Shown: positions 28,112-30,816 of the stretch, in pieces
Layout of the letters: each line of letters opens with the position of its first letter
How positions within the stretch are numbered: the stretch's first letter is position 1
NCBI RefSeq assembly: GCF_001293685.1
Contig: NZ_BCAG01000003.1
Coordinates: 1,612,001 to 1,676,000, forward strand
DNA: 64,000 nt
Direction of reading: 5' to 3'
DNA from: Desulfatitalea tepidiphila
GTDB taxonomy: Bacteria; Desulfobacterota; Desulfobacteria; Desulfobacterales; Desulfosarcinaceae
The notes under the pieces: generated by a model
The model's database searches: none
What the model was told of the DNA's origin: nothing
The model's input: the letters and a program-made list of their open reading frames with translations, nothing else
Program-made: the position numbers and the translations under genes

Positions 28112-28493
28112 TGAACGCTAAAGGCGGTGCCAGGTCACGCACGCCCACGTGTCTGAAAGGAGCTTTGCGACTCATGCGTTGGAGTTTTTCTATCCGGTGG
28201 GACTGGTGGGCGCTCCGGACGGCCCGGAAACTCGCATGCGCTCAAACAGTCCGGGCCGCTTTTCCTCCGCTGCACCCGACCGGCACCAACACGACATGCG
28301 AACGAGGGAGCAGATCGCCCACCAGTCCCACCTCCTCCTTTGAAGGATTCGACATCAGGCCGTTATGCCGTGATAGTGATCATTTTGTTGCATAGAAATT
28401 CACGCGGGACCATGACGATGGCAAACGTCGGGAGCAAAAACTAATTTTAAATACTTGATTCCGCGTGAAGTTCACATCGGGGTATCAGTTCTA
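28112..28493. other. Intergenic region with a truncated structured element
   Basis: No gene is seen. The stretch contains the inverted-orientation copy of the structured repeat at 28150-28345. The remainder (28346-28493) is AT-richer. The sequence ATAGTGATCATTT at about 28373 recurs at about 28766, at the right end of the next copy. Confidence 0.5.
28150..28345 (-). repeat. Structured hairpin element, family S, copy 1 (inverted, shortened)
   Basis: A perfect 17-base outer stem (28196-28212 with 28316-28332, GGTGGGACTGGTGGGCG) encloses the family's core hairpin at 28220-28258 (CGGCCCGG...CCGGGCCG with loop sequence AAACTCGCATGCGCTCAAAC). The core loop reads in the opposite sense to the copies at 28496 and 29990. 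One strand of the middle stem seems to be missing. Confidence 0.65.
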
Positions 28494-28495
28494 TT

Positions 28496-28770
28496 TGAAT
28501 GTGACTCACCCAGAAGGGCATGCTTTCCAGAGGTTGATTGATGAAAAAATTCGCTTGGCAATGTTTATGGCAGGCCTGGGTGGGGCAGGTGGCCAGGGCC
28601 ACGTGAGCCATGCGGTTTAGTGCCGCTTGAATGCAAACGGCGGACAAGTGGCCCAGACTGTTTGAGCGCAGCGAGTTTCTGGGCCGCCCGCCGTGCATTT
28701 TACCGGCACTTGACCGCTTGGCGGGTGGCATCGGTCACCTGCCCCACCCAGGCCGGATTTAATGAATAGT
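28496..28770 (+). repeat. Structured hairpin element, family S, copy 2
   Basis: About 275 bases. Three nested stems can be drawn: an outer 22-bp stem (28573-28594 with 28733-28754, one G-U), a middle stem (AGTGCCG 28619-28625 with CGGCACT 28704-28710, then AATGCA and ACGGCGG with their partners), and a core hairpin GGCCCAG/CTGGGCC (28650-28656, 28679-28685) with loop ACTGTTTGAGCGCAGCGAGT. It lies just upstream of the MalY/PatB-type gene. Closely similar to copy 3 at 29990. Confidence 0.8.
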
Positions 28771-28816
28771 GATCATTTAAACATTTAAACTAGATATATT
28801 AATTTATCATACTGAT

Positions 28817-29992
28817 ATGTTTGACTTTGAAACCGTCATCGACAGGTCGAACTCGGACAGCCACAAGTGGCAAAAGTACAGTGGCCGGGACGTCATCCCC
28901 ATGTGGGTGGCCGATATGGATTTTCCATCGCCACCGGCCATCGTCGATGCACTCCGCCGCAGAATCGATCACGCCATATTCGGATATGGCAGCCCTTCAC
29001 CGCAACTCAAGGAGGCCGTCATTGCCTATCTCCATGAGAGCTATTCCTGGGATGTCTCCGGGGATTGGATCGTGTGGCTTCCCGGCTTGGTGACGGGCCT
29101 GAATGTGGCCTGTCGCAGCTGGGGCCGGCCGGGCGCCGGCATAATGACCGCCCTGCCCGTCTACCCGCCTTTTTTGACGGCACCAGGACTTGCAGGCAAG
29201 CGACTGCGGACAACCCGGCTTTCTTTCGAAGACCAACACTGGCAATTCGATTGGGATGCGCTGCAAAATACCATCGACGCCCGGACCGCCATGTTTCTCC
29301 TCTGTTCGCCGCACAATCCCACGGGCAGGGTGTGGACCCGCGCCGAGCTTGAAACCCTGTCCGCCATGTGCCTGAAATCGGGAATGGTGATCTGCTCGGA
29401 TGAGATCCACTGCGACCTGGTGCTGGAACCGGGATGCCGCCACATTCCCACCGCCACCATCGATCCTGAGGTGGCCGATCGTACGATTACATTGATGGCA
29501 CCGAGCAAGACCTATAACATTCCAGGACTCGGATGCGCCTTTGCCATCGTCTCCAACCCTAAACTGCGCATGCGGTTCAAGCGGGCCATGGCCGGCATCG
29601 TGCCCCACGTCAATGTATTGGGCTTCGTGGCTGCCCAGGCCGCTTATCAGCACGGCAAACCTTGGCTGGCGGCCGTCATCGACTATTTGCGGCGGAATCG
29701 GGACCAGGTCGTCGATCGGGTACGCCAATGGCCGGGCGTCACAATGGGGCCGGTCGAGGCGACTTACCTGGCCTGGATGGACATGCGGGCCCTGGGTGGA
29801 AAAAATGTCGCTGAGCGATTCGAAGAAGCGGGAGTCGGGCTGTCCGATGGCGCGGCATTCGGCGCGCCGGGCTTCGTTCGGCTGAACTTCGGCTGTTCCC
29901 GCAACTTGCTGGTCGAGGCCCTGGCCCGTATGACCCGTGCCATCGAGAAGTGGGATATCCCATGTTCCGCCATCGACAGCAATTTTGACTGA
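28817..29992 (+). CDS. MalY/PatB family PLP-dependent aminotransferase / cystathionine beta-lyase
   Basis: A 391-residue fold-type I PLP enzyme. MFDFETVIDRSNSDSHKW and IPMWVADMDFPSPPAIVDAL at the start are diagnostic for the MalY/PatB C-S lyase group. PLP contacts: SPHNPTGRVW at about 166-175, CSDEIHCDL at about 194-202, and the Schiff-base Lys231 in APSKTYNIPGLGCAF. FVRLNFGCSRNLL near the C-terminus holds the carboxylate-binding Arg. The expected reaction is beta-elimination of cystathionine or related thioethers to pyruvate, ammonia and a thiol. The gene is flanked by two direct copies of the family S structured element; its TGA stop is the first three bases of the right copy. Confidence 0.9.
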   Translation: MFDFETVIDRSNSDSHKWQKYSGRDVIPMWVADMDFPSPPAIVDALRRRIDHAIFGYGSPSPQLKEAVIAYLHESYSWDVSGDWIVWLPGLVTGLNVACRSWGRPGAGIMTALPVYPPFLTAPGLAGKRLRTTRLSFEDQHWQFDWDALQNTIDARTAMFLLCSPHNPTGRVWTRAELETLSAMCLKSGMVICSDEIHCDLVLEPGCRHIPTATIDPEVADRTITLMAPSKTYNIPGLGCAFAIVSNPKLRMRFKRAMAGIVPHVNVLGFVAAQAAYQHGKPWLAAVIDYLRRNRDQVVDRVRQWPGVTMGPVEATYLAWMDMRALGGKNVAERFEEAGVGLSDGAAFGAPGFVRLNFGCSRNLLVEALARMTRAIEKWDIPCSAIDSNFD

Positions 29993-30268
29993 ATGTGATT
30001 CGCCTTGAAGGGCATGGATGACAGAAGTTGTTTGATAAAAAATTCGCATCGAAACGGCCATGGCAGGCGTGTGTGGGGCAGGTGGCCAGGGCCACGTGAG
30101 CCAGAGGTCGTAGAGCCAGTTGAATGCAGACGGCGGACAAGCGGCCCAGACTGTTTGAGCGCAGCGAGTTTCTGGGCCGCCCGCCGTGCATTTTACTGGC
30201 TCTTGACCGCTTGGCGTGTGGCATCGGCCACCTGTTCCACACACGCCGGGTTTAATGAATTGCATTCA
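29990..30268 (+). repeat. Structured hairpin element, family S, copy 3
   Basis: A second direct copy of the 28496-28770 element. Outer stem 30066-30087 with 30226-30247 (22 pairs with two G-U), middle stem AGAGCCA (30112-30118) with TGGCTCT (30197-30203), core hairpin 30143-30178 with the same loop as copy 2. Bases that differ between copies 2 and 3 change on both sides of the stems. It begins at the stop codon of the MalY/PatB-type gene. Confidence 0.8.
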
Positions 30269-30417
30269 GATAGAATAGCTGGCCCATCGACAAGGTTGTT
30301 GACAACTGACTTGAAATAATCGAAAAAATAATTCCGTAAGCAGGTAACGGGGTCCCGCGTCCTTGCCGGCGCAGGTCAATAGGACTTAGGATAAATTGCG
30401 ACGAGAGAGGCAGTGTC
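30269..30417. other. Leader region of the 30418 gene
   Basis: Non-coding. A TTGACA at 30299-30304 precedes an A/T-rich stretch but has no well-placed -10 box. A GAGAGG lies 9 bases before the next ATG. Confidence 0.3.
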
Positions 30418-30816
30418 ATGTATTTCATAGGCAATTTTCAGTACTTGTCCAATCAGCAGAGCGAGTCCGAAACCGAACGGCGACACGGCGTTTTTTCGAT
30501 GATGGTCCAGGCCGGCACCTCGCGGGAGGCGCTTGAAAAGTTCCGCGATCGATTGACCGCCTTTCGTCAATCCTCTTCTTTTTTCGAAGGCAGCTGCAAT
30601 ATTTTCATCAGCCAGCTCCTGGAATTCGACCAGGTGCCGAGAGATCATGCGACCATGTTGAACTTCCGATCCTATGCCGGTGACCCGATGATGCCGTTTA
30701 TCGGTTGTATCGTGCCCACAGAGGCAAACAACTCGTGCACAATTCACGAATGGAAAGAGGATCACCCCACCACGGAGGGGCGTGCGGACAATCTCTTCCT
30801 GACTTTCGAGGCATAA
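30418..30816 (+). CDS. Conserved-looking hypothetical protein, 132 residues
   Basis: I do not recognise the family. The protein starts MYFIGNFQYLSNQQSESETE, is soluble, and has mixed alpha/beta character. A helix at about 33-50 (TSREALEKFRDRLTAFRQSS) is followed by FFEGSCNIFISQLLEFDQVP and a late Trp/His-bearing strand (SCTIHEWKEDH). A GAGAGG site precedes the ATG, and codon use resembles neighbouring real genes, whereas the long antisense frame over the same bases lacks any start signal. It ends 38 bases before the radical SAM gene and could be co-transcribed with it. Confidence 0.65.
   Translation: MYFIGNFQYLSNQQSESETERRHGVFSMMVQAGTSREALEKFRDRLTAFRQSSSFFEGSCNIFISQLLEFDQVPRDHATMLNFRSYAGDPMMPFIGCIVPTEANNSCTIHEWKEDHPTTEGRADNLFLTFEA

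Follow-up and report, generated by a model that had tools for sequence, protein, structure and literature searches.

A MITE-like hairpin element of Desulfatitalea and its spacing to promoter-like sequences

In a 64,000-nucleotide stretch of the Desulfatitalea tepidiphila genome (hereafter the window), an aminotransferase gene lies between two direct copies of a repeat that folds into a long hairpin, raising the question of whether gene and repeat form a movable unit, whether the structure is itself under selection, and how the repeat came to lie where it does.

Copies in the window and in the host genome

Two direct copies with nested arms are present in the window, as the original prediction described: their matching segments (28496-28548 and 28544-28767 against 29990-30042 and 30037-30260) align gap-free at 79-87% identity, and complementarity between arms is 87% in one copy and 83% in the other (inverted repeats I3 and I4). 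The limits that had been assigned to them, 28496-28770 and 29990-30268, fall short of the true ends. Copy 2 is a complete element of 305 bp (29977..30281, + strand, in core-loop orientation), with its ends placed from the consensus of copies. The left terminal inverted repeat (29977..29995, +) provides the TGA stop (29990-29992) of the upstream gene, which reads into it, so the stop codon noted earlier at the boundary of this copy is indeed there; the right terminal inverted repeat (30263..30281, +) is G000:C3:1642263-1642281 in the host genome. The interior hairpin (30066..30247, +), delimited by inverted repeat I4, by folding and by pair counts on 105 copies, carries a conserved apical loop, TGTTTGAGCGCAGCGAGTTT (30152..30171, +), that recurs at the 107 core sites of the host genome and as an identical 21-mer in other phyla. 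The element is flanked by a left target-site duplication, CGCCATCGA (29968..29976, +), identical at seven of nine positions to the right one, GCCCATCGA (30282..30290, +), and a -35-like hexamer, TTGACA (30299..30304, +), begins 17 nt past the right end; at standard spacing from it, this site has only a poor -10 (GAAAAA). The gene 3' of copy 2 (30418..30816, +) has no Pfam match at E <= 1e-5.

Copy 1 (+) extends from about 28486 to approximately 28775; its left end is recognisable, its right terminal repeat is not recognisable in the window sequence, and its apical loop lies at 28659..28678 (+). A third hairpin is inverted (28196..28332, - strand; inverted repeat I9, with arms at 28196-28215 and 28313-28332 and the loop at 28227-28248). 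This hairpin had been taken for an inverted, shortened copy at 28150-28345, but although the core loop is common to all three, its stems differ from those of copies 1 and 2 and its loop holds a 1-nt insertion. Its motif GGAGGAAAAGCGGCC is similar to loci L156 and L180, and we read it as a putative relative from another subfamily with a common core rather than as a shortened copy.

The core, CTGTTTGAGCGCAGCGAGTTTCTGGGCCG, occurs at 107 sites with at most three mismatches in the 5.6-Mb host genome (reversed control, 0), among which 105 distinct copies were counted, and these are spread over several contigs in both orientations. The element also occurs on contigs titled Desulfatitalea sp. UBA4791. 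Alignment of the copies gives an element of about 300 bp whose interior is flanked by 19-bp terminal inverted repeats (CAGCAATTCTAACTGAATG...CATTCAGTTAGAATCGCTG; the ends are also written CAGCAATTCT), and CAGCAATTCTAACTGAATG itself is found at 105 places in the host genome with at most two mismatches (control, 0). Both ends were recognised in 75 of the 103 copies with enough flank. In these 75, positions -9 to -1 on the left equal positions 0 to 8 on the right at 75-92% per position, compared with 25-29% when left and right flanks were re-paired as a control, and the 9-bp duplication matches at seven or more positions in 56 copies. The elements are about 300 bp or shorter, and no long transposase-bearing span was seen between ends. 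With its terminal inverted repeats, its 9-bp duplications, the lack of an internal transposase gene and the evidence of movement presented below, the repeat is a non-autonomous, MITE-like transposable element of about 300 bp. It resembles prokaryotic MITEs in being small, gene-less and mostly intergenic, in having terminal inverted repeats and a target duplication, in numbering tens to hundreds of copies and, presumably, in being moved in trans.

Empty sites and promoter spacing

A sister genome (G007, 73% complete) matches the window locus at 92-94% identity in the aligned pieces. There, the site of copy 2 is uninterrupted and reads CGTCATCGA-CAAGCTTG-TTGACA, with CGTCATCGA as the single copy of the target and the hexamer at the same place as in the window. 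Window positions 28118-28813, which hold both copy 1 and the inverted element at 28196-28332, are replaced by about 10 bp. The aminotransferase gene (class I/II, PF00155; 28817..29992, +), which the original prediction had called MalY/PatB-like and supposed to move or recombine with the repeat as a unit, is present at the same place in the sister genome with neither flanking element, and it is therefore a neighbour, not cargo.

Sixteen sites, picked by stepping through the 56 copies with a good duplication, were joined across the element and compared with the sister genome: 11, that of copy 2 among them, were contiguous there (empty), three were split (filled), one matched by its right half only and one had no match; the alignments of two of the 11 empty sites (L098 and L106) contain small gaps. 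A different repeat of about 70 bp, in the left flank of locus L027 in the host genome (query about 887-966), occurs at no fewer than 26 places in the sister genome and is apparently unrelated to the element. In three instances the interior is inverted relative to ends or flanks: L300 has a flipped interior between normal ends, and L398/L045 and L400/L076 are pairs with opposite orientation in the host genome versus the sister genome, from which we infer in-place inversion via the long inverted arms. Elsewhere in the host genome, two co-oriented core copies about 970 bp apart (L371:2271-3545; contig C1, about 125.5-126.7 kb) form a pair resembling that of the window.

The hexamer beyond copy 2 matches a genome-wide peak. 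A -35-like hexamer (at least four of six letters of TTGACA) starts exactly 17 bp past the right end in 51 of 95 copies, compared with 0-11 of 95 right flanks at other offsets from 0 to 49; with at most one mismatch, TTGACA stands at offset 17 in 34 of 95 and at every other offset from 0 to 59 in 0-4. The best promoter call likewise fell at offset 17 in 34 right flanks and at offset 16 in three, as against a mean of 1.1 and a maximum of three for offsets 16-18 together in a shuffle control. This offset amounts to the 9-bp duplication plus 8 bp. Left flanks on the same strand have no peak at offset 17; read outward (n = 84), they yield four hexamers at that offset and five best promoter calls, which suggests a minority of reversed insertions. 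The gene 3' of the element is co-oriented with it in 77 of the 100 copies with a call, the calls coming from our own gene caller and codon-usage guesses.

At nine of the 11 empty sites, the -35-like hexamer already stands at the offset-17 place in the sister genome; L022 and L098 are the two without it, and L022 has TTGACA at offset 9 instead. Because the hexamer is present in the large majority of empty sites, insertion seems to be oriented and exact to the base pair, immediately 5' of the promoter core, and in this placement the element differs from MITEs in general, as it does in its long interior hairpin with a conserved loop common to elements with other ends. Half of 20 stretches fetched from the sister genome gave a pair of ends, and eight of these 10 pairs have TTG at offset 17, with the proviso that the flanks of five of the 10 match the locus of a host-genome copy and are thus not independent. 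Among relatives with the ends CAGCAATTCTCGGTGAAC, a count by eye placed a -35-like hexamer at 17 in L263 (from genome G009) and L180, and at 19 in L261; in the 12 copies of another family, from genome G039, no fixed -35 spacing was seen by eye, and the targets are AT-rich.

Hairpin structure and the level of selection

The stretch 29977-30283 folds into one hairpin, both as RNA (-171.3 kcal/mol, z -12.6) and as DNA (-90.1, z -10.8). Across the 105 copies, the 67 pairs defined on copy 2 are formed at 94.1%. Double-change cells numbered 202; shuffles gave 59.9, none of 500 reaching the observed count, and slid controls gave 20-30. The paired changes reported from the window copies are thus genuine on a genomic scale, with the reservation that a pairing model derived from one of the copies tested, and applied to related copies, favours the structure. 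Double changes occur in 12 of the pairs, however, which does not exceed the number in shuffles (10.6; 129 of 500).

Selection for structure, which the original prediction had drawn from those changes, finds support in the interior but not in the terminal repeats. Partner shuffles put interior A-C cells at 133.6, none of 500 falling to the 73 observed, and interior G-U cells at 526.8 versus 463 observed, A-C thus being avoided more than G-U, whereas in the terminal repeats neither falls (A-C 106 versus 99.6, G-U 121 versus 113.5): interior arms compensate and terminal arms do not. The stronger avoidance of A-C relative to shuffles mildly favours the core-loop strand as the one that is folded. 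An apparent excess of G-U over A-C in the interior (453:72, on 65 of the 67 pairs, with two poorly formed pairs left out) versus the terminal repeats (121:106, the A-C count being inflated by 51 cells from a single position fixed as A-C) did not persist under an equal filter, at which the raw ratios, 167:66 and 116:55, are close. Substitution spectra in the interior are symmetric (C>T 2.8%, G>A 2.9%), and the stems in other phyla gave no polarity signal (six G-U versus five A-C). The strand reading is weak, and it does not separate RNA from single-stranded DNA.

Transitions among copies are about two to four times rarer in the interior than in the spacer and terminal repeats. Selection at each resident locus was considered and rejected: in three insertions shared with the sister genome, differences were counted at 37 of 566 interior positions, compared with 31 of 344 in the spacer and terminal repeats and 61 of 1096 in the flanks. 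The three are L340/L070 (without the broken right flank of L340), L393/L036 and L401/L116; the others of the six shared copies (L396, L400 and L395) were dropped, their flank alignments being broken by inversion or rearrangement. Since the interior is no slower than the flanks in these three clean copies, we infer that the structure serves the spread of the element, not each host locus, and constraint seems to decide which elements spread rather than to weigh on resident copies.

The common loop, the mover and alternative explanations

Exact search found the 20-nt apical loop in Pseudomonadota, Bacteroidota, Bacillota, a Brachyspira and other Desulfobacterota, where its stems differ but still pair. 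The exact 21-mer is present in at least 119 stretches of the genome collection, and the 80 loci returned, many from metagenome-assembled genomes, include Burkholderiales, Gammaproteobacteria, Bacteroidota, Bacillota, a Brachyspira and Desulfobacterota. In 45 of 51 distinct flank pairs the loop is bordered by a stem of 6 bp or more, compared with a mean of 4.25 and at most nine when flanks were re-paired. Within the host phylum the loop, with one base free, is patchy (11 of 395 genomes), and within this order it is carried by elements with three or more different end sequences: those of the host genome, of G039 and of a second type in G009, the last judged by eye. Ten of the 12 G039 copies have duplications matching seven to nine of nine positions, at the best of small shifts. 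The G039 terminal repeat occurs at 357 places and the core at 21, and many members of that family seem to be without the core. One G039 stretch (L305; G039:C1:885286-895286) holds a run of four truncated cores spaced 380-584 bp apart, which share one left flank but differ in part on the right, reflecting either a local tandem rearrangement or an assembly fault.

The core was found in one stretch of the viral collection, and the 189-bp interior from the window had no match in the plasmid or phage collections. Among 102 proteins neighbouring the core in other phyla, no family occurs in more than three (25 of 156 families, most frequent first; proteins are longest-ORF guesses, loci were thinned to distinct cores, and four of 106 listed ORFs were left out, from L197 and L215, which are the window's own element type). 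No Rfam 15 family matched at gathering score, either in the window or in 19 loci from other taxa; matches to MIR1437 on both strands, at 42-59 bits (gathering score 168), were taken as artefacts of long hairpins. Our literature search found no promoter-spaced bacterial element by title or abstract start, and a search with the peptide SLFERSEF plus sequence terms returned nothing relevant, in keeping with the original prediction, which knew of no named family for the repeat.

The element's mover was sought around solo ends: in 35 such stretches there was no autonomous element or transposase with the same terminal repeats, and the stretches held internal-deletion derivatives, single ends, core copies, one core pair and one flipped interior. 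Y1 (RAYT-like) transposases were rejected as movers, no core lying in stretches of 5.5-6.5 kb around any of the four PF01797 matches. Three Y1-type transposase-like genes (L032, L033 and L034; open frames of 342-437 aa) have no neighbouring repeat copy.

The explanation that we consider probable, and hold only slightly less firmly since the strand-polarity contrast shrank on recount, is that of a MITE-like element mobilised in trans, whose right end lies, in one orientation, exactly 17 bp 5' of the -35 hexamer of a sigma70-type promoter in more than half of its copies because the transposase acts at the promoter edge, and whose interior works as a folded single strand serving spread. A transposase acting in trans would cut with a 9-bp stagger at a promoter's upstream edge; it may be of the DDE type, enzymes that make duplications of fixed length. 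With the hexamer starting near -36, the duplication would cover about -53 to -45, which on general grounds would be the upstream edge of the polymerase, and the transposase could be positioned by promoter-bound RNA polymerase or could itself read the -35 region. The long interior hairpin would function as RNA, or as single-stranded DNA during movement, and may present its conserved loop to a factor common to many phyla.

The transposase may instead recognise plain DNA sequence, be it the -35 hexamer or a longer consensus surrounding it, with RNA polymerase playing no part, a possibility to which we give appreciable but lesser credence. The strongest letters of the right flanks (n = 95) are indeed those of the hexamer (T17 in 71, T18 in 66, G19 in 61, A20 in 49, C21 in 50), yet T40 and A41, the letters of a -10 at normal spacing, are prominent as well (58 and 55), and among the 29 copies with at most two of six hexamer letters at offset 17, TA at position 40 still stands out (eight of 29, compared with 0-3 at other offsets from 34 to 47). 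Broad insertion, with only those insertions just 5' of promoters surviving selection, appears very unlikely: small mobile elements are usually intergenic, according to passages of PMC10969869, but under selection of that kind distances of 14, 19 or 25 bp should do as well as 17, and the peak is one base wide. A regulatory RNA or cis-element kept by the host at each locus, in a regulon of about 100 sites, might be argued from the fixed promoter spacing and from the rarity of interior transitions; the 11 of 16 sites empty in the sister genome, the shared-copy interiors diverging no more slowly than their flanks (37 of 566 versus 61 of 1096) and the lack of a recurrent gene family beside the core in other phyla (none in more than three of 102) make this highly improbable.

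Nor do the known hairpin systems account for the repeat. REPs are hairpin repeats that are patchy across phyla, and a REP/REPIN-type element moved by a Y1 transposase would agree with the hairpin, the patchy distribution, the four PF01797 matches in the genome and the interior's lack of matches among plasmids and phages, with its core in a single stretch of viral sequence. REP/RAYT elements, however, are not known to leave a target duplication, and the element has 9-bp duplications and terminal inverted repeats of 19 bp, while no Y1 gene was found flanked by its copies, so that we hold this origin, towards which the original prediction had pointed in proposing to look for such a transposase beside full-length copies, to be very unlikely. 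Recombination sites of the attC type, with the gene between them as a cassette, would explain why two direct copies flank a gene, but the gene is in place without them in the sister genome, copies lie in both orientations on several contigs and insertion leaves a 9-bp duplication; this reading, refuted for the present locus, has next to no probability overall. The Correia elements of Neisseria have other ends and another duplication than the element described here. They are repeated MITEs, situated mostly immediately 5' of genes, that can invert in place and carry their own promoters, as passages of PMC10969869 describe them; the promoter found here is instead the host's, outside the duplication and already standing in nine of 11 empty sites.

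On this locus, then, the observation that prompted the work is confirmed and its interpretation is partly supported; it had missed that there are roughly 100 copies, that insertion duplicates the target, that the distance to the -35 is exact and that the loop occurs in other phyla. A wider idea, to which we give only a minor chance, and marginally less since the polarity contrast shrank, is that of an unnamed superfamily of mobile hairpins across phyla, with one 20-nt loop, changing stems and different ends, in which a universal host component, RNA polymerase perhaps, is bound by the loop in the form of RNA or single-stranded DNA, and in which loop or transposase directs insertion to the 5' edge of polymerase-bound promoters in the Desulfatitalea lineage; binding of a universal factor by the loop is speculation. 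A loop common to Desulfobacterota, Burkholderiales, Bacteroidota, Bacillota and a Brachyspira, and without an Rfam family, calls for a binding partner. The yeast elements Ty1 and Ty3, eukaryotic retroelements using Pol III factors, insert at a fixed place 5' of transcription start sites as a safe haven, a similar way of working that implies no relation. If the explanation that we favour is confirmed, a bacterial transposable element would pick its target relative to a promoter, with one-base precision and in a fixed orientation, providing a parallel in bacteria to the promoter-linked safe havens of yeast retroelements and, possibly, a promoter-addressed insertion tool.
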